Part shown: piece by piece, positions 9,705 to 63,952 of the stretch
Position numbering within the stretch: the stretch's first letter is position 1
Layout: each line of letters opens with the position of its first letter
DNA from: Prototheca cutis
Lineage: Eukaryota > Chlorophyta > Trebouxiophyceae > Chlorellales > Chlorellaceae
NCBI GenBank assembly: GCA_002897115.2
Contig: BCIH01000006.1
Location: 71,250-135,249, forward strand
DNA: 64,000 nucleotides
Direction of reading: 5' to 3'
Program-made: the position numbers and the translations under genes
Notes under the pieces: generated by a model
Database searches by the model: none
Told to the model about the DNA's origin: nothing
Seen by the model: only the letters and a program-made list of their open reading frames with translations

Positions 9705-12700
9705 CTACCCGGCAATGTCGGGGGCCCCAAAGGACACGCGGGGCCTCCCCCCTTTCGGCCGAGCGTGCCAGTGCAGTTCGGCGGCCTCTGCGTCTTGCGC
9801 GTCCCGGCGCTCGGCNGCAAGCACCAGGCGTTTGAGCTCGGCGCGCTCCGACGCCTCGGCCGCCTCGCGCGCGAGGATGCCGTCCGCGACCGCCGGCGCG
9901 ACGGGGATGCTCAGCGTGCGCAGCGTGCGCGCGTCGCGCGCCCCGCGCTTGAGCATGACGTTGAATCCCAGGCGCACGCGCGGCTCGGGAGGGGTCGGTG
10001 CTGTCGTTATGGGAGTTGTGCTGCCGCTGGAAACAGCAACAGTGACTGTGGGCGGCAGCCCACCGCCGCCGGCCTCGGGGTGCCGGCCTTCCAGCATCAG
10101 CGCCGCCAGTTCCCTCTCAAACTCCTCATCCACCTCCTCCGGCACCACATGTGGCACGGGCAGAACGATGTTATCGTCATCGTCATCGTCGTCCTCGTCC
10201 ATATCGCTGCTGGAGCCCGTGCTCTCGGCGTCAGAATCTGACGATGAGGAGCTTGTGGAACTGCCGCCAGAGTCACCAGTTGCAGCCAACGGACCTTCGT
10301 GACCATCATCTTCATCGTTGTCTGAAGCACCACCAGCATCCTCGTCATCGCTGGCAGCGCCTTCCTCCTCTTCTTCGTCATTGGCACTGCCCGGCCCTGC
10401 TCCCTGGCCGCGAGCGGTCCCCATCCCCGCACCATCCAATTCAGCGACTGCATCGCGGGCCGCGGCGGCATCGGCAAAGTTCCGCCGCGGCACACCCGAC
10501 CTTGCAAACACCTCTGCCACCTCGGCCTCGACGTGCACCGGCAGCGGCGGGTCCTTGTGCGCTGCGTATGCCTCCAGCCGCGTCAGCGCAGCCACCAGGC
10601 GCTGCCTGGTGACTCCCTTTGTGAAAAATCCACCACACACGTCCAGCAGCGCCACCGCCAGTCGCAGCCGGAANCAGTCGGACGGCGGGTCGTGGGGTGA
10701 GGGGGTGCTGCTTTTGAATGGGTTGGGTGGGGCACCCATGCCAGTTGTTGTGGCAGGATCGGAAGCAAGCCTTGCGCTGTCAGCGGCTTGCACGTGCGCT
10801 GCTGTACCGCCGCCACCGCCGCTCGGACCACCGACACCAACCGCGCCAGGTGGCAGCGCACAGAGCAGCTCAAGTGTTTGGAAGATGACGGGTGAGGCGA
10901 CGACTTTGAAAGCGTACAGTTCACCCAGCAGGCGGATGCCCGCGAGGCGACGTTGACGTGACAGGGCCACCGGGTCCTCCAGCCNCGCGGAAATTTCTTC
11001 CAGCACACAGTCAACAAGTCCTATTGCCAGTTCAGGGTGCCAGCGCCGCAGGGCAGCTACGAGAGAAGCCAATGCCGGCAGAGTCTCGGCCGAGCCCTTG
11101 ACCGCAGCGCGGAGGAGCGTGGCCCGGACGTACGATCCGTGATCGCGCCAGTCCAGTCGCCGCAGCCGTCGCAGCGCGGCCGAAGGGCCCTGGGAGGGCA
11201 GGACCTCGTAGACGCACCATCGCACATATTCGTGCTCCGGCGGCCGCGACTTTTTCGACAAAGCAGCAGTGCTGCCCCCGCCGGCGGCCACTTCAGCGCG
11301 GATCTGTGCGGCGACCGAGTCGACGAGCGCGGCCTGGCGGGCGTCCAGGCGCCTCGCCCCCCGCAGCCGGAGCATGACGCCAAGCATCGCCTCCATGCGC
11401 GCCACCGTCGGCCCCCATCGCCACAGAAACCGCCCCGCGCAATCAAGCAGCGCACATGCCGCGTCAACGTTTGACCCTGAGAAGTCGTCGAGCAGCGCTC
11501 GCAGGAGCCGGAAGGCCGTGCCGGCCTTGAAGGCCCTGGCCTTGACCAGCTCGCCCACGTAGCGCATGGTCCGGATGCGTGCATCCAGCCCTCTCGCCCC
11601 AGCAGCTGTCCGGTGCGCGGCCTGGCCCCGGGCCGTAGCCACCAGCGCCGACTCCAGCGCCTGNGGGATGTCAGGCCAGACCGAGCCCAGCGTCGCCGCG
11701 AGGCGTGCCCTCGGTGGCAGCGCTGCCAGCGCGCCCCAGGGGACATCCAGCATCGCGGAGACCAGCCGCCGTCGCGCCGGGGGCCTTGGTGCCGTGGCGC
11801 AAAACGCCAGCGCTGCTGCATCGGCATCCTCCTTGCTCAGGCACGTGCCCAGCTGGTCCAGCACTGCCTGCAGCGCCGAGCTGGCGCGCGATTGGCTGGC
11901 GGTTGGATCGTTCATGTTGGCGCTGCGCTCCTCGGGAGTTGTCGCCTCCCCGGCGGTGGATGCTGCGGGTGTATCAGACACCGCTGTCATCCCAGCATCG
12001 TCAATGTCCATGACGTCATCGCCAATGTCGCTGGTGCCGTCGGTAGCAGCAGCTCCTTCAATGGCCTCCGGGCCCTCCTCGGTGTCATCACCCCCATCGT
12101 CATCGACCTCCTGCCCTGCGCTAGAACGAGCTGCAGGTCCGCCGAGCAGCACAGCAGGGACAAGGGCCCGGAGATCAAGCAGGTTCTCGTAAAACTCTCG
12201 TGTCTCCTCATCATCATACGGGTTGATTGCCGCTGCTGTTGCTGGCTTCACATCGCTGTCGGGTTCGCCCGGTGCCCCACCGCCAGCAACTGCCGCATCG
12301 TCGTTCTCTTCATCGTCATCTTCCAGCCCCAGTGCCGGCGGCGGCGCCTCCCCGAGGGCCTCTGCCAGGCTCGTCACTGCCTTGACCAGGGCATCATGCG
12401 CCGCAGACTTGCCCTCCGTACGGGCCACCGCAGCGTCGGTCAAGTCGCCTCGCTGCAGCAGCGCCCGCGCGTCCCGGGCGCGAGCCCGCCGCAGCGCCCC
12501 CCGCACCGCCCGCAGCTCCGCCAGCCCAGAGGTCAGCGCCTCCCGCGCCGTCGCTGAAAAACTTTCGCGCAACTCACGCGGAGCACGCCAACGCTGCACG
12601 TACGCGGTTTGGTACTGAAACTCTATCGATGCCTCGGTGCTTCCAGTGGCGGCGGAAGTAGTACCATCATCACTGCGCGCCGCCGCTGCCGTTGCCTCTG

Positions 12701-13567
12701 CATTCAAACCTGCTGCATCCCCCGCCCGCAGCTCCGGGACTCGGTCGGCATCACCGTCCCCCTTGCCCACGATGAAAAACTCATCGCGGCCGTACTTGAC
12801 AAACGACGCAAGCAACGGCAGTGTCGCAGCCGCAGTAGCACCGTCATCGGCGCCTGTCCCCGGCCGCGTCGCTGCGACCAGGGCCCTGAGCTCGGCGGTG
12901 AGTGGAGCAGGGGATCGGTTCACCCCGGCAATCGTGAGCTCGAGCAGCAACCGGCCCAATGCACGTCGCCGCAGCGTGCCTGCCCGGTCATCGTCCAAAG
13001 GCGGCGGTGCCTCGAGTTCCTGCGCCAAACTTGCCAGCAGCGCGGGGGCAAATTCCGCGTATCGACGATGTAAAGTCCCCGCCACCTCGGCGGCGGCCGG
13101 AACGTCCCGGGGTCGCTGCGGCGCGGCCAGCAATGCGGCCGCGGCCTCGCCCACGTATCGTGCCTGGTTCACGCGCTCGATGTCTGCAACCACACCTGCG
13201 CGGGACTCCTCCGTCAGCGACCTCAGTTTCCGCGTCAGCGCCGTGTTGCGCTTCATGCTGCTGTCCAGCCGCGAAAGTTCGGCTTCGTCTGTTTTTGGGG
13301 GGGCTGGGTATGTTGGGGTTAATGTGTCTTTTTTTGCTATGTTGATTAGCACGGAGCATTGATGAAGAAGCACGTGGGGCCCCCTCCTTTGTGGGGGAAG
13401 GGCCGACAGAAGGGCCGATAGAACTGCAAGGAACATCGCCTCCACCCTCTCCACCACAATTTCGACAACCATTCAATACCTGGGCGTTGGGGGAACAAGT
13501 TTGCTTCCCGCATGGCCTTGCGGTGAAGCAGCTGGGCCAGGGCCTCCGCCATCTGCCCAGACTCCAT
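9705..13567 (-). CDS. UPF2: UPF2, regulator of nonsense-mediated mRNA decay
   Basis: Cytoplasmic NMD scaffold that bridges UPF3/exon-junction complexes to UPF1. Exon 13567-13480 (ending ...NLFPQRP) splices to the very long exon 13288-9705, giving about 1,223 residues. Diagnostic segments in order: DSSMKRNTALTRKLRSLTEE of the first MIF4G; an acidic linker; the second MIF4G region; in the third MIF4G, RRLAGIRLLGELYAFKVVAS, then FRLRLAVALLDVCGGFF. Next is an Asp/Glu/Ser-rich acidic region, then the UPF1-binding tail VRLGFNVMLKRGARDARTLR. Four single Ns fall inside the CDS. A longer start at about 13629 is possible if the N at 13612 hides an indel. Divergent from the BEACH gene. Confidence 0.92.
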
Positions 13568-14191: not shown

Positions 14192-19440
<5,249 letters not shown>

Positions 19441-22400: not shown

Positions 22401-25400
22401 ATGGGCGGCACAGAGACGCCCCCCTCGCCCGACGGCGGCAGGGAGGGCCGCTACTCCTCGCCAGACCGCCGGGCGGCCACGCCCGGCTCCGGCCTTGCGC
22501 CAGACACACCTTACGCACTCCGCACGCCGGCGCGGGCTGAAGCCAGCGCGGGCGCCTCCCCAGCCGTCCGCGGCCTTGCCAGCAGTGGCAGCCTGGCTGC
22601 GGGGCAGCAGCAAGGCGAGTTCACTGGCAACCTGCGTCGGATGACAAACAACCTGATGGAAATTTTCGACCAGATGTCCAACAGAGGTGCGTGTGTGTTT
22701 GTCGGTCGAGTGTGGGGCGCAGGCTGGGCCATGCCGTCAACATGGCCGTGTGTGAGATTAAATGAAAGTCTCTTTGCATGTACTTTTTGGAGGTGATGGC
22801 TGTGCGTCGCCCCTGATGGACCGTCTCCTTCCCACCCCAACCCCCAATCCCATTCCAACGTCCCCACCGAATCCGATGCAGCTGCGGCAGCGAGCACGCC
22901 GGCGCCGGGTGCGCCCGCGCTTGCGGTTCGCGGCGACAGCGTGGCTGACCTCGAAGGTGGCCACGGCGATGCGGGCAAGGCGAGCGGCACGCTGGCGGGC
23001 GTCGCCGCGACTGCCCCCGGCACCGGCGACGCCGACTCGATGAACCCGGCGCAGGTGCGCCGCCTGACCACGAGCATCCTGGACGTGCTGCGCCATTTGC
23101 AGACTGGCTCTGGCAGCGACAAGGGTTCTTCCAGCGGCGTGGGCGCCGAGGACCCCGAGATTGTGGTTGCGCGGCACCTGCACGCGCTGTCGCGCGACGA
23201 TGGCCTCCTGCCCGACAACGTCTCGGAGCTGAGCCTGGACGACAAGCTGAGCCTGATATCGGGCGGCACGTCTGCCAGTGGCAAGGAGTCGTACGCGAGC
23301 CTGAGCAGCGCAGGGGCCCTGCTCAAGGACTGGCCAGGCTTCAAGGGCGCCGAGGACTACAAGGGCGACGTGGTGCACCCCTGGTACGTCGACCTGGCGA
23401 CAGGGCAGCCCAGCGGACTGGGCGCACCTCGTGGCACCAGCGGCGAGGGCGGCGAGGAGGAGGAGGAGGAAGAAGAGGAGCCCGACTATGGCATCCCCAT
23501 TTGTCTGGAGAAGCAGCGCCGCGTCAACATTTGGGGCACATGTGTGTTTTTCATCTACCTCGCGGCCTTTATCTTCTACATCGTCATCCGCATCAGATAC
23601 ACCCTCGGCCTCGGCGGTCTCCTGTGGTGAGTCAATCATGGAGTTTGGGTTGCGTACAGAGTTTTTCCCCCCCGTGCATTGTTGTCGATGTGTGTGAAAC
23701 TCTGGTGCGCCTGCCAGCGCACGGCCTGTCCTCAGCAGTCTCTCGACCTTGCCCTGTCTGACCGACGAGGAACAAACCCCTTCCCCCCACCCCATCCCAC
23801 CACCACCCCCACCCCCCACCCAGGTATGGCGTCATCGTCCTGCTGGTTGAGATCATCGGTGGTCTCGCACAGATGCCCTATGCGGTGTGCCTGCTGATGC
23901 GTGTGGAGAACAGCAAGCCTCCCGCACCGGATGAAAAGGGCGTGGTGCGCACGCTGGCCCCCTACCACGTGCGTGTGCTCATCCCATGCTACAAGGAGCC
24001 GCTGGACGTCATCAGCAAGACGTTCATGGCGGCGCTGTTCGCTCCACTCCCCGCCAACTGCCAGCGCACGGTGTACCTGCTGGACGACGGCCGCGATGCC
24101 GAGAAGCGCAAGTTTGTGCACTCGCTGCGCGTCCCGCACGCGGTGTACGTCTCTGGGCGCAAGCGCGGCAAGGGCGAGATGAACGGCAAATCCGCCAACA
24201 TCAACAACTGTGCCAAGCAGCTTTATCCCGGGGACGGCACGGGCGTCCCACTGACAGAGGTGATTTGCGTCTTTGACGCGGATCAGGTGCCCAACGCCGA
24301 CTTTTACCAAAAGATGGTTCCCATGCTGGACGGTGGCTGCGACGTGGGAATGGTCCTGTCTCCCCAGACGTTTTACAACCTCAACCCTGACGGCGACATC
24401 TTCAACCACTCCAACGTGCACTTCTGGGACTACACGCAGCCCGGCTACGACGCGCTGGGCCTGATTTCGTGCACGGGTACCAACTTTTTGGTCCGTGCGC
24501 GGGCCTTTGCGGACGCGGGCTGGTTTCCCGAGTGGACGCTGACGGAGGATTTCGCGCTGGGCATCGAGCTCAAGAAACGGTTCTGGCAGTGCCGGTACGT
24601 CAAGGAGTACCTGGCGATCGGCGAAGCCCCCGAGGAGGTGCGCAACTGTTTCCAGCAGCGTTCGCGTTGGTCCAAGGGTCACTTCCAGACGTTTTTCAGC
24701 AAGCACAACCCGATCATTCAGCGCGGCCTGTCGCCGCTCATGCGGTGGATGTACGGTTCCGTCATCCTGGCCTACTTCTCGGCGTTCCTGGGCACCCCGC
24801 TGCTGATGCTGGTGCCCATGATCACCGTGTGGTTTGGGTCCTTCCCCATCGTCATCAACTTTTGGGCGGCTGTGTGCATCACGGTCTACTACGGGGCGAC
24901 GCTGCTGCTCAATTTCTACACGCACTCGCTGGCGCACCTCAAGTCGATGTGGTTCACCTCGGTGTCCAACTCCATCCTGTGGTTTGCCTTTTTGAAGGCG
25001 ATGTACCGCGCGACGATCGGCCGCTACATCGACGGCTCCATCGTGTTCAAGGTCACGGCCAAGGGTCTGCAGCGCATGAACGCGCTGCCCCTGCGCGACG
25101 TGTGGATGGCCCTCCTCTTCTTCGCCACCATGCTCACCACGCTCATCTTTGGACTGGTCCACTTTTCGCGCGGGCCAGCGTCCACCCCGCTGGTCATCTC
25201 CCTCATCTTCATGGCCCTCAACCTGATTCCCAACTACCTGTTGCTCCAGGTCGGTTTTTTTAGAAAGAGGGGGGGATTTTTTATTTTTTTATTTTATTTT
25301 TTTTTGGGGGGGGGGCCATCTTGCAGGGAGCGGATGTTGTTGGTCGTCAACCCCAAGCCTGTTCCCTACGAGCAGCGACCAACTCCAGGCGCCCATGTCC

Positions 25401-27629
25401 ACACTTTCTGCAGTATGCACTGTTCCGGCGGCCGATCGTCTTCAACCCGATTTGCAAGATTTGCATGCTTCTGACGACGTTCTTCACCATCTTTGGCATC
25501 GTGCTGGTGTGGGTGCTCTACCCGCGGTCGTACTCATTCACCGGTGCCATGTCGAGCAGCCTCACCTTTTTCGACACCCAGCGCATCGGGTCGCTGCCCA
25601 GCGACTACCCAATCTCCTGGCGCTCGTCGGCCTTCACGCAGCAGGCCTCCAACGTCATGTGGCTGTCGTACAACTCCACCGTCGACGAGGCAAACGGCGA
25701 CAGCACCACGGGTCCTGCCGCGGCGCCGATGCCTGCGTCTGCGCTGGTCCCCACGCCCGGCTCCCTGTCTCCGGGTGCGTCGTCCCCGTCGGTGCTGTCC
25801 CCCAGCCCCTCGACGCTGTCTCCAGCCTCGGCCAGCCCGTCGACCGACGCGTTCCAGAACTTGGTCAACGGCCTGACCGCATCGCCCAGCCCCTCTGCTG
25901 CCGCCGCATCCCCCAGCCCTGGGTCGCCGTCCAGCGATCCCTTCTCCAGCCTGGCGGGCCGGCGGCTGATGCAGAGCAACCCCTTTGCCAACTTGTCCCC
26001 CACCACGGGCAGCTCCCCCTCGAACAACTTGTACAAGTACCCGCCGCCGCCGCCGCCGCCGCCCCCCCCCGGTGACTCCTTCCCCACGCCCGAGGCCGTC
26101 AAGCTCACCGGCTCCCCCTGGGACCTGGAGGGCGGGTTCATCACGGGCATGGACACGGGCAACATGCAGGCGACGCTGCCGCAGGCCTTTTCGACCGCGG
26201 TTCTGGCCTGGTCGTACCTGACGTACGGCGGCGCCTTTGACGCGGCCGGCGACGCGACGTCGACGCTGCTGGATAATTTGCGCTGGGGCACGGACTACCT
26301 GCTCAAGACGGTCCAGTCTGTCGGCACCAAGACGTACATTCTTTCGCGCGTCGGCGTCATCACGGACGAGGAGCTCGACTGGTATCGGCTGGAGGACGCG
26401 ACGTGGGCGCGGCCGGCCTACGTCGTGGACATGGGCAAGGGCGCGAGCGACTTGGGCGGCCAGGTGGCCGGTGCGCTCGCGGCGTCGAGCATCGTCTTCA
26501 ACGCCGCGGGCGACGCGTCCTACGCCTCGACCCTGCTGACCAAGGCGCAGTCTGTGTACGCCGCCGCGACGGCCGACCTGGGCTACTACTCTGTCCAGGA
26601 CTGGAACATGTCTACGGTGTACAACTCGTCGACGTACTATGACGATCTCGCTTGGGCGGCCGGCTGGCTCTACCGTGCCACGTCGGACAGCAGCTACATG
26701 TCGGACGTGTACTCGTGGTACATCAAGCACCTTGAATTTGAATCCGACGTCTCGGATTTCAAGTACGCCTTTGACTGGGACAATGTCTTCTGGCCGACCA
26801 ACGTGCTCATGTCCCAGACGACGTCGCTGGCGACCTTTGGCACGCAGTCCGAGACCTACCTCAAGTCGTGGGTGTGCGCCAACATGGCGGCCAACTACAC
26901 CCTGCGCGGCCGCGCGTACAACCCGTACTCGGCGGCGCTGGGCTCCACGCAGAACACGGCCTTTGCTGCGCTGGCATATTCGGACGTGCTCGAATCCAAC
27001 GGCGAATCCTCGGAAAAGGTGTTTGTCTACCGCTGCTGGGCGCTGGGCCAGATCCGCTACGTCCTCGGCGACTCGGGCCGCAGCCTGACCGTGGGAGTCG
27101 GCAAGAACCCGCCGACACGCACGCAGGACCGGGACGCGGCGTGCCCCGAGAGCCCCGCCGTCTGCAACCGCGTGACGGGGCTGCTGTCCCCCGAAGAGGA
27201 CACGCACGTGCTCGAGGGTGCGCTTGTCTATGGCACGGCCAACTCGGACGATTACCTGGACATCCGCGATTCCCCGTCCTCGCGCGTGGGCATCGAGAAC
27301 AATGCCGGCTACACCGGTGAGTAGTAGTAGATTTTTTTTGGTGGTGGGGGTGGTGTTAGTGTGTGTGTGTTAATGTGTGTTAGAGTGTGTGTGTGTGTTA
27401 ATGTGTGTTAGAGTGTGTGTGTGTGTTGGAATATGCATGCCTCGTGAGCATGTGGTTTGAACAGAAACATTTCACAAGCACTTTTAGTGAAACAGCAATT
27501 CTGCCCAACGCTCTCACAGGTGCGCTGGCTGGCGCGTCGCTGTTGAACGACGGCATGTGGGAGCAGTGCCTGCAAAAGTACGGAATCTACAGGCAGAGCC
27601 CCATTTGCGGGTCATACATCAACATCTAG
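22401..27629 (+). CDS. Cellulose synthase-type GT2 fused to a GH9 endoglucanase-like domain
   Basis: Exons 22401-22686, 22882-23626, 23824-25249, 25414-27316 and 27520-27629 join in phase to 1,489 residues. The N-terminus (1-310) is cytosolic and low-complexity with an acidic run. TM1-TM2 lie at about 311-365. The GT2 catalytic domain carries LLDDG (D431/D432), FDADQ (D495, D497), TED (D586) and QQRSRW (Q622-W626). TM3-TM7 lie at about 655-856. The 2+5 TM layout, as in plant CesA, places the C-terminus outside the cell. A Ser/Pro linker (857-1045, with a Pro10 run) leads to a GH9-like (alpha/alpha)6 domain: WDLEGGFITGMDTGN, LDNLRWGTDYLLK and ENNAGYTGALAG. Predicted role: beta-glucan synthesis at the plasma membrane. 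The GH9 active site looks degenerate (see findings). The exact glucan product is inference. Confidence 0.93.
27355..27426. repeat. Imperfect GT-rich tandem repeat in the last intron of the cellulose synthase fusion
   Basis: Two copies of a unit of roughly 36 bp built from GTGTGTGTGT and TTAATGTGTGTTAGA lie in the intron 27317-27519. Confidence 0.7.
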
Positions 27630-31193: not shown

Positions 31194-33818
31194 ATGCTGC
31201 GCCGGACAATGCGCACGGCCAGGCCCGGCACACCTCGCTACCGGGTGGCCTTCATCCTATGCTCACTACTCGCGGTGTTGGTTCTGACCTTACGCTTGTG
31301 GGCGAGCCCGCTGGGAGGTCAGGTGCGGACCCTGTCTGACAAGTGGCGCCAGGGCCGGGATCCGCACGACTATGTGGAGCCCGCGCCTGGGGCCCACGAT
31401 CACCTCAAAGGGGCTGTGGTCCTGCCTCAGATCCCTGGAGAGTACCACTCGAACCTCACATACCAATCAGAGGTGCGTCATGGGAGCCGGCAGTGACCTG
31501 GGAGTTTGGGTGGGCTTTGGGCTTGGCAATGGTGGTTGGCGCACTTGGACCGCCCCAGCTGGCGGAGTCGGGATTTGATCTGGGGACCGCATGCACGTGC
31601 TCCAAATAACCAGCACATCCCATGAACCCCGGCCCTTTGNCCCACTGCTGCAGCTCGCGTCGCGGCCGTCGCAGTATGCCCGGTTCATCGAAGCCGACCT
31701 GGCGCCGTGGAAGCAGTCTGGCATCACGGAGGAACTGCTGGGGTACTCGGAGGCCCTTCCTCCGCTGTGCGAGGGCCCCTACGCCCGCATCCAAATCTCC
31801 CGGGGTAGCCTCTGGGTCAAGTATGGCGAGGTGGCCAGCAGCGGTTCAGCCTCCTCCGCGCAGCGTGAGAAAGAGAGGGGGAGGGGGGGGGATGTGGGGT
31901 GCAGCACGGCCGCCTCAGGGATGTGACAAGCGATGTGAATAGGAGAGCAGCACAGTGCCGGATGATCTGTCCAGTGGGTCATCACGCCTTGCATGCGACC
32001 TTCCTCAACAGAATACCCCCCCCCCCTTGCAGAGGTTGCGGCAGCGGCGCGGGCGCAGCAGAAGCTTGATTTGATGCTGCTGGGCATTCTGGATGCGCTG
32101 AGTGTGTTTGGGTCCAAGATCCCCGACGTCGACGCGGTCCTCCATGCTGCAGATGTGCCCTGCATGCGGAAGAAATGGCAGCACGGAGGTCCCGCTCAGG
32201 TCCTGTTGGGCATGCAGGGCTCCAAGCGCCACTTTGACATTCCCCTCCCGCACCCCGCGATGTGGATGGATCTGGATGCTCCACTCCAGGTTTGTCCTGT
32301 TTCTTTTTGTGATTGGGATGCAGCTGAAGCATGTGCCGGATGATGCAGCCTGAAAGTGTCCTGTTATTACTTGGGGGGATTTGTTGTTATGCCTCTGGCC
32401 ATGCCAGTTGTTTTTGTTCAGGGACGGTGGCCAGGCAATGCAAGCTGGCTTGCTCCATGACCGCATGGCATCCCTCCTAGCGCGCAATCCGTCGCCACTC
32501 CCGCTATTGCAGGGTCCGGACGGGCAGCCGGTGTACAGTTGGGACCAGGCGGCGGGTCTGCTGCAGCAGGAGTATGCCAACACGTCCTTGTTGGTTCGGA
32601 TCCCGCAGGCCATGTGGCGCGGCCCGCCGCCTTCCGAGTCGCACCCGGAGCGCAGCGTGTTGCGCCAGGTGTTCACGCGCTGCGGCCGGGCCATGCTGGC
32701 CGAGGAGCGGCCGCAGGAGGCCGCGCTGTTCAACGTGCAGCACACGCCCGTGGCGCTGCAGGACGTGTGCGATTTCAGGTATGCCGTGCACATCGAAGCC
32801 CTGGGGATCAGCCCCGACCTGAAGCACAAGCTGGCCTGTGGCTCCGTAGTCGTTGCATTTGACCCCGAGTACTGGGAGTTTTGGTCGCGCGCGCTGCGGC
32901 CGGGGCGGGACTACGTGGCCCTGACCAACGAGGAGGACCACATATGCAACGAGACGGCGCGCGCAGCGGCAGACATGAACGCCATCTTCTCCGTCGTGGG
33001 CAGGTCGGCGCTGACGGGGCCAAAGGCGCAGACGCCCACGCTGGCCGCGGCCGTGGAGGATATCCGCCGCAACCCGGCCATGGAATCGGTGCTTGCACAG
33101 GTGTCGGAGGACGACGTCCCCGCCCCGGGACAAGGCGAGGATTTGGACTTTGTTTGCTTCTTCTTTGTTGCGCGCGGGATGAAATTCACGTGCTGCATTC
33201 GTTCGAGGGAAAAGAAAGGCCCAAAGCCGCAGCGTGCAGAATGCCTGATGCTCCCCGTTTGCAAACCCGTCACAGATGGTGCCTACTCCTGGGGCAGCAA
33301 GGTCACCCCCTGGGAAATCGCGTGGGCTGGCTACGACTTTGTCCATCAGAATGTCCGACTGGAAGACGCCGTCATCTACATCAGGTTGATGGCTGAATGG
33401 ATGATTGGGCCGTTGCCTTTCTTCGTTTCTTGTTGCTCTCGTCGGTGCTCATGTCTGAAGGAGTGAGAGGAGATTCCAGGGCGCGGTCGGCTCGCAGGGA
33501 GCAGCAGCACTGTCCCTCCATGAACACACCTCTCATCGTACCATCCAAGGAACCCAACCGAGCTCAACATCCCCGCCCCACCCACACCCACGCCCTCTTC
33601 ATCACCCCAGGGACTTGTTCAAGGCGTATGCCAAGCTGCAGGATTTCCAGGTCGTGCCCAAGGCCGGGTCTTCGTGCCTGAATGGCCAGCGACTGCTGCA
33701 ACGTTTTGGCGGTCCCCGGAGCACGCTGGGCGCGGCCCTCCTTCGGGAACACCCCTGGATCGCCGACTTTGAGGGCAACTGCCGGGTTGCAGAAAAGTAC
33801 TGGGATGACGTGCACTAA
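31194..33818 (+). CDS. GT90/CAP10-domain glycosyltransferase, type II membrane protein
   Basis: Exons 31194-31472, 31654-31830, 32035-32289, 32513-33384 and 33611-33818 give 596 residues in phase. A short basic N-terminus plus one membrane segment (RYRVAFILCSLLAVLVLTLR, about 15-35) indicates a Golgi/ER lumenal enzyme. The C-terminal half has the CAP10/GT90 signature: IPQAMWRGPP, then YAVHIEALGISPDLKHKLAC, GSVVVAFDPEYWEFWSRALR, PGRDYVAL and the terminal helix DAVIYIRDLFKAYAKL. GT90 members include POGLUT O-glucosyl/xylosyltransferases and fungal CAP10 xylosyltransferases. Donor and acceptor here are unknown. The fourth exon may contain an extra in-frame intron (about 33148-33274). Its start is a choice among several AG sites. 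An N lies in an intron. Confidence 0.85.
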
Positions 33819-38015: not shown

Positions 38016-40466
38016 ATGCAGGCGGGTCATACCGCGGAGTTGCGTGTGCTGTTCACGCTTGGCTTCCTGTTGTCTTGCACGGCTCTCGTGGGTGCAGGTA
38101 GGGCTTGGCGCGGCACGGTTGTTTCGTGCCCGTTTGTGACTTGGGCTCATTTTCATGCATTGGATTGTGTGGATGGCCTCCAACGTATGGCGCCATGCGT
38201 TTCCGAGTGGTGCCCGCGGATGACGTATCCTCCTCATTTGCTGGCCCTCGCACTTCAGCGGACAACTATGCGCTTCTCATTGCTGGGTCTTCCGGCTGGG
38301 GCAACTACAGGCACCAAGCCGATGTNTCGCACGTGAGGGCGGGTTCGGAGGGGTGATAGGGTTCCCGAAAGACCCTCCGAGCTGCCTACACCGCGGCACC
38401 CGGTGGATGCCTATCCGAGGAGGCCTGCCAGGCAACTGCGTGGAATGTTCCTCTGCGGCGAGCCAAATGCGTGCTGCCACTGTGCACTCATTCTCCACAA
38501 TTCATTGTGTGCACGTCTCCACGTCGCCACCATGTTGTGCAGGCTTATCAGATTGTGCGCAAGGCCGGAATCAAGGAGGACAACATCGTCACGATGATGT
38601 TTGATGACATCGCCCGCAACCCCATGAACCCGCACCCCAACCAGATCTTCAACGCCCCAGGCGGGCCCAACGTCTACGAGGGCGTCAAGATTGTGCGTAG
38701 AGTGATGGTTGCAGTGGCGGGGGTGTATCATGATGTGCGCTCGGCGCTGTTTGCACACTACTTTTTTTCTGTACGAGAGCATTCACCGGCCCACGACGCA
38801 ATCCCATCCCGCAGGACTACAAGGGCAGCGCGGTGACGGCGGCCAACTTTTTGGCAGTGCTGGCCGGCAACCGGTCGGCCGTCACTGTTTCACCCGAGGC
38901 CAACGGTCGCGTGCTGGAAAGCGGGCCCGACGATCACGTGTTTGTGTTTTACAGCGATCATGGCGCACCGGGCATCGTGGGCATGCCATCTGGCGGCTTC
39001 CTCTTTGCCGACCAGTGGATCACTGTCCTCAAGCAGCGATCAGGCGTCGGCTTTGGTCACATGGTCATGTGAGTGGGGCAAACGGGGTGGTTGCGGGGTG
39101 GGGGTTGGTTTTTGAGGAGACTGCTGAATGTTGTGTATGTGTGTGTGTACGCTTGGGGAAAGTGAACCCCCGCTCGCCCACCCCAACGGTGGCAACATCA
39201 CTCTGCAGTTATCTGGAGGCGTGCGAGTCTGGTTCGATGTTTGACGGGCTTCTTCCCGACAACATCACTGTCTATGCCACCACGGCGGCCAACGGCCAGG
39301 AGTCGTCTTGGGGAACCTACTGCCCGGGGATGAACCCCGGCCCGCCCCCCGAGCTCCTCACCTGCCTCGGTGATCTCTACAGGTACGCATGGTGCTTGGG
39401 TTGCGGTGGGGGCACTGCGCCTGTGTGTGGTGTGCCGATGTGGGTGCAAAGGGGACCAAAAGGCCCGTGCCAGGCTGCGGAGTTTGGACGCCTCGCGGTC
39501 CAACCCTCTAGGCGGCCTCCGTGGGTGCCAACACCCCATTCCCTCTTTCTACCGCGCCGCAGCGTGTCATGGATGGAGGACGTGGAGGAACCGCCATCGG
39601 ATGAGCTGGAGACGCTGAAGAAGCAGTTCCAGCTGGTGCGCGACCGGACCAGCCAGGGAGGGTCGTACATCCAGGGGTCGCATGTCATGCGGTTTGGCAA
39701 CACAGAAATGGACAGGCACCCCGTCGTGGCATACATTGGCGACCGCGTGGATCTCGTGTCTTCTACGGATGCCAGCGCGGCGTCGGTGGGCACGGCGAGC
39801 GGCACGGCACGGCGTGTCCGGCCGTCGCTCCAGGCGGTGCCGCAGCGCGAGGCGGATCTGGTGTCGCTACGTGCCCGTGTGGCAGCAAACGTGCCCAGCG
39901 CAGAACCGGAGCAGGCAGCATGTGAACTGGCAGCCGAACTCGCGAGCCGGGCACAGGTGGACTCGCGTGTGGCACGCGCGGTGTACGGCCTGACGGCCCG
40001 TCGTGGCGGTGGCGGTGCAGCCCGGCGCCTGGCGGCACGGTGGCTGGGCCTGGGCTCGACGCTGAGGACCGGACTGCCCCCGCCAGAGCTCATTCTGACC
40101 AGCGAGTTGCCGTACCGGCAAGGCCGGCCCGTCGTCGACGACTGGGACTGCCTCCGGGTACGTGCTTTGGGGGTCAGTTGTTTGTCGAGATGCTGATGGC
40201 ATGCCCCCGGGGGGGGGGNGGGGGGGNGGGGGGGAGTCAAAGGGTACTGAAACAAGAGCAGCCGCACACAACCGAGAGCCAACAATATGACATCATTCCC
40301 CCAGGGCATGATCTCGGCATGGGAGGATGCGTGCGGCAAGCTGGACCAGTATGGCATGCGCCACAGCCGTGCATTTGTCAACCTGTGCAATGCTGGCGTG
40401 CCGCCAGAGGAGCTCACCGCCGTGGTTGCCGGGGACCGCGTCTGCGCGGCCCAGGCCGCAGAGTGA
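38016..40466 (+). CDS. VPE: Vacuolar processing enzyme / legumain (asparaginyl endopeptidase, C13)
   Basis: Secreted/vacuolar cysteine protease cleaving after Asn (and Asp). Seven exons: 38016-38097, 38259-38332, 38543-38692, 38815-39068, 39209-39382, 39563-40157 and 40305-40466. They give 496 residues in phase. A hydrophobic signal peptide ([19 protein letters not shown]) is followed by [40 protein letters not shown] and [15 protein letters not shown]. The catalytic dyad is visible as His151 in FYSDHGAPG and Cys192 in [11 protein letters not shown]. The substrate-pocket segment [18 protein letters not shown] is present. The C-terminal prodomain (death-domain-like LSAM) follows. The usual Cys in 'ADVCHAYQ' reads Ser, next to an N at 38326. 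Full family length. Confidence 0.95.
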
Positions 40467-59564: not shown

Positions 59565-61080
59565 ATGGTGAGGAGCTGGCGCTGGAATGCTTGCACATGC
59601 GCTATGGACGTGGCCGGAGTGTCAGCCTATGCTGATCTTCGCACGACACGCCATGCCACAGCGGTGCACCTTCGACTGCATCCTGTACGACCAGTACTGT
59701 GCTGGTATTGTTCGAATGCATTGCGAAATCGCCCTGATTCGCGGCCCGGCACCCGCAGGCCAAGTTTGGGGAGGGCGACGAGCGGTGGCTCGTGAAGGAC
59801 TTGGGGGAGGGAGGCCGCAATGTCAACAACTGGCACTGGTACGCAGACCGCGCGGGCTGTTGGTTGGTGCATTGCATGTTCTAGTTGGTCTGGAGCGCGC
59901 GACCTTGTGCTGTTGAAGATGCTCGGGGGATGCAAGGATGCAAGGCAGGCCCCAGTGGGCTGTGCCGGCTGCGTCCTCTGGCAGCCTGCCATTTGCCCGG
60001 GCCCATCATGCCCCAATCCACCCCTTGCCAAACCAAAATGCACACAAGAACAACCCTCCCCCCAGGTCTGAGACGGACGCGCTGCCCTGGTGCAAGGCGC
60101 GACTGGCAGAGCTGCTGGTCGAGAGCTCGCTGTTTGACAGCGAGACCAGCAGCGCGAGCGTGACCAAGCTGAAGAGCCTGACGGGGGAGGCCGTCGTGAA
60201 CAACCGCAAGGGCAAGACCATCGTGCTGTACGAGCTGGAGGCCGTGCTGACGTGGACAGGCGCTGCAGCCGACGGCTCCAAGGTGTCTGGCGAGCTCAAG
60301 CTGCCATATATCAGCGAGGAGAACCACGACGAGGCGGCCGAGGTGCAGGTCACCATCAAGGAGACTGGCGCTGAGGCCAACGCAGTGCGGGCGCTCATCC
60401 TCGAGCAGGGCCGACCACGTGTGCAGGAAGCTGTTGCCACATTTGTGGCCGAGCTCCGGGCAGGCGGACCCAAGCTTGCTGCTGATGGGGGTGCTGCAGC
60501 GGCAAGCTCCTCTGCGGTGGGTGCTGCTGTCGCTGGCAGCAGCGGACCCAACTCGGAGGGCNGTGGCAATGGAGCCGCAGCAGACCAGCCTGGAGCCACC
60601 GAGCCAGGAGCCAGCGCTCCTGCGGCACAAAAGCCCACGGCGCAAAAGCCAGCCTCCAGGGACCGGCGGCGGCTGGAACTGAACGAGCGTTTTTACGCCT
60701 CAGCCGCCGACATCTACGACTGTTTCACCGACACACGGCGGGTGATGGCGTACACGGGGTCCCCCGCGGAGGTGGACCCCACCCCCGGTGGCACGCTGAG
60801 CCTGTTTGGCGGAAGTGTGCAGGGGAAGTTTCTGGAGCTGGAGCGTCCGCACCGGATCGTCATGGACTGGCGGTTCAGCAACTGGGCCGACGGCGACGTC
60901 TCTCGCGTGGAGATCAGCGTGGAAGAACCCGAGCGCGGCAGTGCGCGCCTGCACCTCGTCCAAACGGGCATTCCCGACCAAGACAGGTTTGGCCAACACG
61001 ACGTTCTGGGTCTGACTCAGGCAGGCTGGGCCAATCAGATTTTCCACCGCATCCGCCAAGTATTTGGCTATGGCATCTAG
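59565..61080 (+). CDS. AHA1: AHA1, activator of Hsp90 ATPase
   Basis: Co-chaperone that binds the Hsp90 middle and N domains and stimulates its ATPase. Exons 59565-59567 (only the ATG), 59759-59838 and 60066-61080 give 365 residues in phase. The N-terminal domain starts MAKFGEGDERWLVKD and GRNVNNWHW, continues WCKARLAELLVESSLF, GEAVVNNRKGKTIVLYELEA and ELKLPYISEENHDEAAEVQV. An Ala-rich linker with one N (60562) leads to the C-terminal AHSA1/START-like domain: ELNERFYASAADIYDCFTDT, HRIVMDWRFSNWADGDVSRV, LVQTGIPDQDRFGQHD and the final helix WANQIFHRIRQVFGYGI. The three-base first coding exon was chosen because a following GTGAGG donor and the CCCGCAG acceptor restore the conserved start exactly. 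Convergent with RAD21. Confidence 0.93.
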
Positions 61081-61591: not shown

Positions 61592-63952
61592 TCAGTCCCT
61601 CATCAGCATAGCGACTTCAGGCTGGAGAATGGAGATGTCGGCGTAGGGCTCTACTTGATTTAGCGCCAGCTGTCCCCGGTTTTGAAGGACCAGCAGCTCG
61701 TAAAACCAAGCCGCCGCCTCGCGCCGCGACCGGCCCGCCAGCAACGCCGCCGTGCTGACGGCCGCCGCCCGGTCGGCGCCGCCTCGCCGACGCTTGGACC
61801 CGACGTCCGGCGTCGCAAATCTGGCACGTACCGCTTCCAGCACCAGCGTTGCTCGGCCCGTGCCCGTCGCCGAGGGCCCACTGTTGTTACCGGTGCGCTC
61901 CGACGTCAGTGACAGCCGCCGTGTCTCGCTGGGAGGAAGACCGCCATTGTCATTTTCGGTGTTGCTGCACCCGGGCCAGTCAGCCGGGGTGGGATGCGAC
62001 GACGTCCCCCCGGCTGTCGCCGGTGCTGCAAACATCGGGTCGTCAAAGGTCGTGCCCCAGTCGTCATAGCCCCCGACGTCAGGTGTTGCTGCAGGCAACG
62101 CTGCTGCTGGCTGGGATGCCCATGTGTCATTAGACANAATGCCTGCTGGGCGAGCGGCAGCTGCACCAGCCTCGGCCGCGCCCCGATCCATCCTGCTGGG
62201 ACCCATAGTGACCCCGCCGTCATCCCCAGCCATGTCCCGCGCATTGTCGCCCCGGCGCACAGCAACTCCACCGCCGTCCTCGACCACGAGACCCAGGTCC
62301 GCACCCCCGAGGTCGTGCCGGGGGGCCTGGATGGACAGGGCCCGAGCAAACAGACTCTCAAACGCACCAGCTGCTGCATTGCCAACGGCGGGGGTGCTGG
62401 TGGAAGGCCAGACTGCACTCAGAGGGCCAGAAGAGCCATGGGCTGCACTGCCGTGCGCCAGATGCCGCTGTTGAGAACCGCGAGACCCAGCAGCACCGCC
62501 GCCGACCGCCCCAAAATTCGTGACGCCGCGCCGACGAACTAGACATGAGCGATCCTGGAGCAAGGCGCGCATCTCGGCGCCCGAGAGCTCCGTTTCAAGG
62601 TTGCCATCTTCGCCGACGTCCACTTGTGCGCGCTTTCTTCGCAGGCGTGCAGCACCATTGCTGCGAACGGCAGGCCGATCCCTGCTCCCCGGCGGCGTCC
62701 GTGTGCGGTCCGGCTCCACGGCACTGCTTGACCCAGGCAGGCCGGCAGACAGTGCAGCGCCGGTTGGTGTGCCCGCAACCAACCCTGGCAGGGGCGTCCC
62801 CACACCAGAGCCCGGCAGAGGCGGCAGCGACACTGCCGAGGCCAGGGGCAGCGACGGCACCGACCCCGGGAGCGCGATACCCCCAGGAGAAACAGGGGTC
62901 TTCACCGGCGTCAAGCCCGCCAAAGCATCGTCAGCACCACCATGCAGAAATGCGTCATCCCCAACGCCGTGCATGGTCCCTGCAGGATCAAACACCAGCG
63001 CGCCCTGCGCCGCGGCGGCCGCAGCTGCACGTGGGTTTTCGGCCGCTTGGGATCGCAACATCTCCAGCTCGATGCTGAAGCGGCGGTCAATCTCCTCCCC
63101 TGGGGCCGCGCCTTCAAAGACGGCGTCCGAATCGTACCAGCCGCCGCCGTCCTGGCTCCCCGAGCCCCAGCCCTGGGAAGAGAGGTTGTCGGCCAGGGTC
63201 AAAGACACGCTGCCCGACGCCGCCGAGCGACGCGAAGACCCAGATTGTGTGGGCAGGGGCAGCAGCGCCGCGCCAAACAGGCCCGTTTCAGGGTCAAACA
63301 GGTCCATTGGATCGGCCAAGGGCAGCGTGATAGCCGCTTCTGCAGCCTTGCCATCCCTCACGTCTGCCCCGGCCGGCTGACTCCCAAGCTACAGTGCAGT
63401 GTGTGCGATGATTGTGGACGACCAGCAGCTGGCATGGACATGCGACAATGTACATGAATGATGAGGTCTAGATAAACACGACTAGATCAACCCCCCAGAA
63501 TCCGCCTGACCGACTCCGCACACCTGTTGGAGCCCGGCAATGGCATCCTGGGCGTCTATTTCCAGCAGCTGGAGCTTCCTGATGTATACCCGCACGATTC
63601 CCAGCAGCAGCTGGCCCGACAGGCGGAGTGCCAGAGGGGCCTCCGGGTTGAGCACCAGCTCTGCACGGAGCAAGGAGTTGATGCACGAGTATGAACACGA
63701 ACGCAGAGTGTAGACGAGACTCGGGCACGGGACGGACGTGGGGGTTGGGCCTGTAGTCCGACACCGTCGCGATTGGTCCGCACCCACCCCATCCCAATAT
63801 AACCTGCCACCTCCCCCGCGCAGCTCACCCACGGACTGCGCGATGCTGGTCTCGAAAATTTGCGACTTTTTAAGTCGTTTCTCCAGGTGCGAGGCGATCC
63901 ATATGGTGGCCAGCGGGCCCTTGCGGCTCAGGATCTGGGTGGAGTAGAACAT
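61592..63952 (-). CDS. RAD21: Cohesin alpha-kleisin RAD21/SCC1
   Basis: Closes the cohesin ring between SMC3 and SMC1. Exons 63952-63829, 63660-63524 and 63388-61592 join in phase to 685 residues. The N-terminal SMC3-binding domain is unmistakable: MFYSTQILSRKGPLATIWIA, HLEKRLKKSQIFETSIAQSV, LNPEAPLALRLSGQLLLGIV and RVYIRKLQLLEIDAQDAIAG. The middle is long, disordered and Ala/Gly/Ser-rich, with one N at 62137. It starts with the acidic DPMDLFDPETGLF segment. The C-terminal winged helix that binds SMC1 reads SRREAAAWFYELLVLQNRGQ and LNQVEPYADISIL. Meiotic REC8 paralogs share both ends, but the strong FYS/KGPLATIWIA and PYADISI motifs favour mitotic RAD21/SYN type. Separase and phosphorylation sites were not mapped. 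Confidence 0.93.

Follow-up and report, generated by a model that had tools for sequence, protein, structure and literature searches.

The window analysed here is a stretch of 64,000 nucleotides (64 kb) of the Prototheca cutis genome (assembly GCA_002897115.2, contig BCIH01000006.1, positions 71,250 to 135,249); all coordinates below are positions within it. On its plus strand lies a gene encoding, in one chain, a glycosyltransferase module of family GT2 followed by a domain of glycoside hydrolase family GH9. Its five exons, joined in phase across GT..AG introns, give 1489 codons plus a stop (Table 1); an alternative acceptor for exon 2 at 22891 would make the protein three residues shorter. 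A preliminary description had read the locus as one in-phase five-exon gene joining a cellulose synthase to a GH9 endoglucanase, and that gene model was confirmed. A single open frame (25264-27324) spans the last transmembrane helix (TM7) and the GH9 domain. Among the database chains covering 100% of the query is P0003, with 1449 amino acids on a 4609-base contig that seems to resemble a cDNA contig.

Synthase module, topology and GH9 fold

All four GT2 catalytic signatures that had been reported are present (LLDDG at residue 429, DAD at 495, TED at 584, QQRSRW at 621), and exon 3 matches two GT2 families of Pfam (PF13632, E = 6e-16; PF13641, E = 7.5e-14). In a set of 38 chains (the window protein, 36 other fused chains and the GT2-only chain P0030), DDG was found in 32, DADQ in 34, and TED and QxxRW in all 38, some of the misses being in short chains. 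By sequence, the nearest solved relatives of the GT2 part are bacterial and BcsA-type. The protein has the motifs of a processive GT2 synthase of the BcsA/CesA kind as well as the corresponding fold with its transmembrane (TM) channel. It falls outside the bacterial UDP-forming cellulose synthases as TIGR03030 defines them, since exon 3 gives E = 2.2e-37 but only 128.5 bits where the cut-off is 699.1. Fold and motifs are those of bacterial BcsA, whereas a PilZ domain was not matched in a Pfam scan of the exon pieces.

Hydropathy reveals two helices upstream of the GT2 loop and a cluster of helices downstream. This agrees with an AlphaFold2 model of a full-length relative, in which two long helices before the loop and five after it read as TM, so that the 2+5 layout first proposed holds; the model has two further, interface-like helices. 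N-glycosylation sequons are denser in the GH9 part (0.95 per 100 residues) than in the GT2 loop (0.22; 22 chains, with no composition control), a contrast that fits a GH9 domain outside and a GT2 domain inside. As the preliminary description supposed, the topology would place the GH9 domain outside the membrane beside the exit of the glucan channel, its exact position being a prediction from the topology and the overall predicted template modelling (pTM) score of the model.

The GH9 assignment itself is borne out: exon 4 matches PF00759 (E = 2.5e-75; 254.9 bits, cut-off 27.7) and the fold is that of solved GH9s. PF00759 was the only family found in the Pfam scan of exon 4, so the domain is not a GH6 of the tunicate type. 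The Pro/Ser stretch at about residues 891-1056 had been taken for an inter-domain linker, a view that is ruled out because the first GH9 helix precedes it; the stretch is an insert inside the GH9 domain, between that helix and the catalytic-Asp loop. Three observations place the helix. A weak alignment (12.5 bits) pairs it with residues 2-40 of 1ks8; in the model a helix at 42-55 follows the TM7 helix at 7-35; and structural alignment to solved GH9s begins at 37-40. The predicted local distance difference test (pLDDT) score of the insert is below 50 over exon-peptide residues 94-214, and in the insert count 20 of 39 were unmatched.

The N-terminal cytosolic region carries a motif of about 20 residues twice, LRRMTNNLMEIFDQMS at residue 78 and VRRLTTSILDVLRHLQ at residue 154. 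Two matches were found in five of eight relatives examined (Auxenochlorella, Micractinium, Chlorella sorokiniana, C. ohadii and P0004) and one in the other three. The repeat is possibly an assembly helix; a PDB search with the N-terminal exon gave no match.

Table 1. Features of the GT2-GH9 gene, in window coordinates
Feature	Position	Strand	Remarks
Exon 1	22401..22686	+	N-terminal cytosolic region; first copy of the ~20-residue motif (residue 78)
Exon 2	22882..23626	+	Remaining N-terminal region, second motif copy (residue 154), TM1, start of TM2
Exon 3	23824..25249	+	TM2, GT2 catalytic loop (LLDDG, DAD, TED, QQRSRW), TM3-TM6
Exon 4	25414..27316	+	TM7, then GH9 domain, in the same exon
First GH9 helix	25522..25620	+	About 6 residues past the TM7 helix
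Pro/Ser/Ala-rich insert within GH9	25621..26124	+	Mostly disordered (predicted), immediately before the catalytic-Asp loop
Remodelled DAGD loop, FITGMDTGN	26137..26163	+	One Asp left of the pair; two-residue insertion
QDR replacing HHR (E4 H376, H377, R378)	27124..27132	+	
Arg1443 replacing the catalytic acid Glu (E4 E424)	27283..27285	+	
Exon 5	27520..27629	+	End of GH9 and short Cys-containing C-terminal tail; stop TAG at 27629

Catalytic residues of the GH9 domain

Does the fused domain still have the residues of a working glucanase? Residues are numbered as in the T. fusca E4 GH9, mapped through an alignment of P0050 to 1js4, and their roles are those we take the E4 residues to have (general acid E424, Asp pair D55/D58, and so on). 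The window protein departs from an active GH9 endoglucanase at both sites: Arg1443 stands in place of the catalytic acid, and one Asp of the DxxD pair is left in FITGMDTGN.

These losses extend over a clade of 67 chains, 38 with both domains (the window protein included) and 29 with GH9 only. Clade labels were set by search rank and architecture; the exception, P0083, was placed after its residues had been seen, ranks among the canonical hits, and if excluded brings the acid count given next to 0/52. At the hidden Markov model (HMM) column of E424, Glu occurs in none of 53 clade chains (0/28 two-domain, 0/25 GH9-only), the other 14 of the 67 being cut short or gapped there; the canonical figure is 56 of 57. 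In a separate MAFFT alignment the position is occupied in 36 of 41 rows, again never by Glu. H376 is retained in 2/57 clade chains and H377 in 1/57 (canonical, 55/57 and 52/57). In place of DAGD stand loops such as GMDTGN or GMEGGN, which carry a two-residue insertion. Judged by HMM column, D55 survives in 2/62 and D58 in 5/53 clade chains, and the two together in none. As read from these alignments, it is firm that the general acid is absent wherever its column can be read and that no intact Asp pair is seen.

In our view the GH9 of the fusion would thus not hydrolyse the chain. The preliminary description had joined the synthase to a glucanase partner, and a working partner is unlikely because the acid and other catalytic residues are lost, both in the window GH9 and in those clade members that could be read. 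The domain appears catalytically broken across the members of the class seen, and this appears to be unreported: in the passages of open-licence literature searched, we found no description of catalytic-residue loss in a fused GH9.

Other parts of the cleft are kept: W128 in 62/62 clade chains, Y206 in 62/63, W260 in 57/60, D261 in 51/60 and R378 in 51/57. Seventeen columns are newly fixed in both subclades; of these, at least a Cys-Pro and a second Cys near residues 1396-1403 are also found in termite GH9. One residue that might have been a displaced acid special to the clade, E1447, was rejected, the same position (428) being Asp in 53/57 canonical GH9s.

A search of the P. cutis genome found five other GH9 genes. 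Four keep DAGD, HHR and NE (three in tandem on contig C4, one on contig C8), and three of these four are included in the canonical counts. Streptophyte rows (Salvia endoglucanase 16 and Closterium, whose identity as KORRIGAN is not established) retain D, D, H, R and E and lie on the canonical side of the tree. A canonical GH9 of Micractinium tetrahymenae, P0082, shares its chain with a PF03067 domain, which we take to be of the lytic polysaccharide monooxygenase (LPMO) type.

Relatives, trees and genomic setting

At least 37 database chains carry both GT2 and GH9 Pfam domains: 33 of 63, plus four (P0150, P0161, P0180 and P0182) among the best 120 of 624. The fused chains come from 11 named organisms: Auxenochlorella protothecoides, Chlorella sorokiniana, Chlorella ohadii, Micractinium conductrix, Myrmecia bisecta, Coccomyxa subellipsoidea, Trebouxia C0004, Trebouxia C0010, Elliptochloris bilobata, Symbiochloris irregularis and Apatococcus fuscideae. 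All belong to the Trebouxiophyceae, a spread that covers the named sources alone and in which Trebouxia is assigned at genus level. With a BcsA-like GT2 and an acid-less clade GH9 in one chain, the window protein is a member of this trebouxiophyte family. Its nearest named relative is that of Auxenochlorella, 88% identical in the GT2 loop (249/282) and 73% in the GH9 core (312/428); Helicosporidium is next nearest in the GH9 tree.

The GT2-GH9 fusion is already known: Blanc et al. described in 2012 four GH9-cellulose synthase-like fusions in Coccomyxa subellipsoidea C-169 and took the pairing of synthase and cellulase domains to indicate cellulose (PMC3446292). The view first put forward, of an independent solution in this one alga, is therefore not supported, the same arrangement having been described in Coccomyxa and being present in the 11 trebouxiophytes named. 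The Coccomyxa fusions share the architecture of the window protein, and C. subellipsoidea P0024 falls within the clade of the trees; they differ in being called cellulase domains (PMC3446292), and the long insert within GH9 was noted for the window's copy. A word search of that paper turned up nothing on catalytic residues or inactivity of these domains, and no description of the fusion was found in the passages seen of PMC10762512, PMC4981690, PMC7464555, PMC10334666, PMC11126685, PMC4928020, PMC9915684, PMC12633428 or PMC13181414. Several GT2-GH9 proteins are named 'cellulase' in databases, a name that is probably wrong about their activity. Two of the chains, P0006 and P0010 (Chlorella sorokiniana and C. 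ohadii), have an extra PF02782 domain, and one source names these chains D-ribulose kinase; two neighbouring genes were probably run together in the gene model.

Separate phylogenies of the two parts (quick, unrooted trees) set the clade apart. In the GH9 tree one branch, with a Shimodaira-Hasegawa-like approximate likelihood-ratio test (SH-aLRT) value of 99, splits 56 clade rows from 57 canonical rows, and the split persists after removal of 60 columns around the catalytic residues. In the GT2 tree, where the GT2-only P0030 was carried among the fused labels, the fused chains form one group with GT2-only chains interspersed. The trees are consistent with a single loss of the catalytic residues, which they leave unproved. 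As proof of separate genes the single-domain chains were partly rejected: four GT2-only/GH9-only pairs share the same longest-contig size (P0035/P0136, 7311; P0080/P0130, 8854; P0079/P0131, 90831; P0066/P0021, 33460) and look like split gene models, while a GT2-only clade of 12, considered below, stands.

No other BcsA-like GT2 was found in the P. cutis genome; a second GT2 match, on contig C7, reads by its motifs like a CslA/CslC-type enzyme. Calling the host an alga is right by descent, although neither light-harvesting (PF00504) nor PsbO (PF01716) genes were matched in the 19.9-Mb genome, in a search whose sole positive control was a cyanobacterium; the host is probably colourless. Neighbouring genes in the window lie at 9705-13472 (-), 14415-19440 (+), 32354-33466 (+), 38706-40196 (+), 59917-61080 (+) and 61592-63388 (-), and are ordinary eukaryotic ones (UPF2-like, BEACH/FAN-like, a GT90 glycosyltransferase piece, C13 peptidase, AHA1 and a Rad21/Rec8 piece); 7 of the 10 frames scanned had a Pfam match. 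Neither tRNA nor Rfam matches were found in the window, ARAGORN having been run with the bacterial code.

Possible roles of the GH9 domain

The reading we prefer, on which our own opinion is evenly divided, is that the protein is a single-chain processive GT2 synthase of the BcsA/CesA type whose extracytosolic, non-cutting GH9 fold guides or holds the chain. The product polymerised by the cytosolic GT2 loop would be a beta-glucan, with beta-1,4-glucan made from UDP-glucose the likeliest, and would be pushed through the TM channel. The motifs and fold of the GT2 part are observed, and the polymer is inferred. In Chlorella (Auxenochlorella) protothecoides, Calcofluor stains the inner wall and cellulase plus snailase digest it, which the authors put down to cellulose or chitin (PMC4928020); this supports a cellulose-like polymer close to this organism. 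TM7 runs within about six residues into the GH9 barrel, and the domain order and folds would thereby set the barrel at the mouth of the channel or close to it, on the outer side of the membrane. Having neither the general acid nor an intact Asp pair, it would leave the chain unhydrolysed, and its scaffold and those cleft residues that are kept (W128, Y206, W260, D261, R378) could make it a non-catalytic receiver, guide or clamp. Contact with the emerging chain is presumed. The role would be comparable to that of the carbohydrate-binding domains of bacterial BcsB or, possibly, of the tunicate CesA GH6, for which something similar has been suggested.

A number of observations count against this reading. 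W313, R317 and Y318 are each found in 0/57 clade chains, which weakens the case for glucan binding. More than one alignment of the Asp loop is possible; at a base position anchored on GG, 3 of 29 fused chains (the window protein, P0001 and P0022) have Asp and 8 have Glu, a pattern that matched 7/54 canonical rows, mostly at wrong sites, so that it was left unused for those, and that anchored P0017 wrongly. Trebouxia P0029 has Glu and Asp at the positions of the Asp pair, so that a rewired hydrolase is conceivable. The GT2-only clade of 12 (Myrmecia, Trebouxia, Symbiochloris, Elliptochloris, Coccomyxa and others) is nested among the fused chains and appears without GH9; this fits later domain loss, and GH9 seems dispensable in some paralogues. 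The fifth of the other GH9 genes of P. cutis, L006 (contig C8, 172365-173057), has YESGG for DAGD and no HHR, with no synthase seen there, so motif loss is not tied to fusion alone; it is possibly a second, independent broken GH9. In Trebouxia sp. C0010, P0083 joins a broken-clade GH9 to a PF02469 domain, which we take to be fasciclin, with no synthase. Such unfused and fasciclin-joined broken GH9s slightly lower the odds both of a guide role and of a parallel with tunicates.

Some of these facts lend something to the alternative that survives best, a purely structural or assembly module (oligomer contacts, wall anchoring) that does not touch glucan. This we consider possible but clearly the lesser prospect. 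The loss of the sugar-cleft residues W313, R317 and Y318, the 17 newly fixed columns (some of their Cys/Pro common to termite GH9) and the fasciclin-joined P0083 all speak for it; the near-invariance of W128, Y206 and W260 speaks against it.

It is unlikely that the domain is a rewired glycosidase or transglycosylase using other acids (for example D1066, D1391 or E1447) on an unusual wall polymer. An Asp at the H377 position in 45/57 clade chains, Glu or Asp at position 428 in 51/53, and an acidic residue (Asp or Glu) in 11/29 fused chains at the base position anchored on GG could supply such acids, but position 428, already Asp in 53/57 canonical GH9s, is no new acid, and the base-loop position varies (D, E, A, Q, S, K, T and others) as a catalytic residue would not.

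Still less probable is a working endoglucanase that cuts or edits the chain at the exit, a KORRIGAN or BcsZ within one chain. The GH9 fold with its strong Pfam score, the mostly kept R378, D261 and W128, and the conclusion drawn in 2012 from synthase plus cellulase domains that cellulose is indicated (PMC3446292) would suit it, but the clade-wide absence of the acid, the window's change of Glu to Arg and of H376/H377 to Q/D, and the missing Asp pair do not. Two adjacent genes (a synthase ending near TM6/TM7 and a KORRIGAN-like single-pass GH9 protein, which exon 4 by itself resembles) or an assembly mis-join are ruled out in practice by the canonical in-phase splice sites, the open frame and exon shared by TM7 and GH9, and the fusion's recurrence in at least 37 database chains, some covering the whole query.

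How does the proposed non-catalytic chain handler compare with known systems? In plants CesA and the GH9 protein KORRIGAN1 are separate; KORRIGAN1 is membrane-anchored and works beside cellulose synthase, and KORRIGAN-type GH9s have one N-terminal TM helix and intact catalytic residues. The window protein differs in having its GH9 fused behind the GT2, with residues lost, and in lying apart from the streptophyte rows of the tree. In bacteria the glucan is handled at the exit by BcsB, a non-catalytic module with carbohydrate-binding domains, and BcsZ is a separate, active GH8. Tunicate CesA is like the fusion in combining a BcsA-like GT2 with a C-terminal glucanase fold minus a catalytic residue, and unlike it in being an animal protein with a GH6 fold; since that fold differs from GH9, the hydrolase parts have separate origins. 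Its GH6 domain has lost the catalytic Asp that many stand-alone GH6-1 proteins keep (PMC7464555, PMC10334666).

Two strands of this literature also tell against the non-catalytic reading. The activity of the tunicate domain is variously given as likely absent (PMC10334666), as to be determined (PMC7464555) and, by Blanc et al., as 'has cellulase activity' (PMC3446292). In a paper that mentions KORRIGAN1, glucomannan synthesis in Arabidopsis depends on the catalytic residues of atypical mannanases (PMC13181414), so a non-catalytic role cannot be generalised.

Our overall interpretation, held tentatively and with slightly more doubt than trust, is that the fusion of a pseudo-glucanase with GT2 arose once before trebouxiophyte diversification and has ever since been retained to handle the nascent chain without catalysis. 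Why cellulose synthesis needs a glucanase is an old puzzle, posed by KORRIGAN, BcsZ and the tunicate GH6. If the interpretation is true, this would be the second independent case, after tunicate CesA, of a synthase-fused glucanase fold losing its chemistry, and would suggest that such synthases need the fold's chain-holding and not its cutting. An algal class with an acid-less glucanase fold covalently attached to its synthase would separate holding from cutting, and the question is open to domain deletion in Auxenochlorella, a laboratory alga with efficient homologous recombination.

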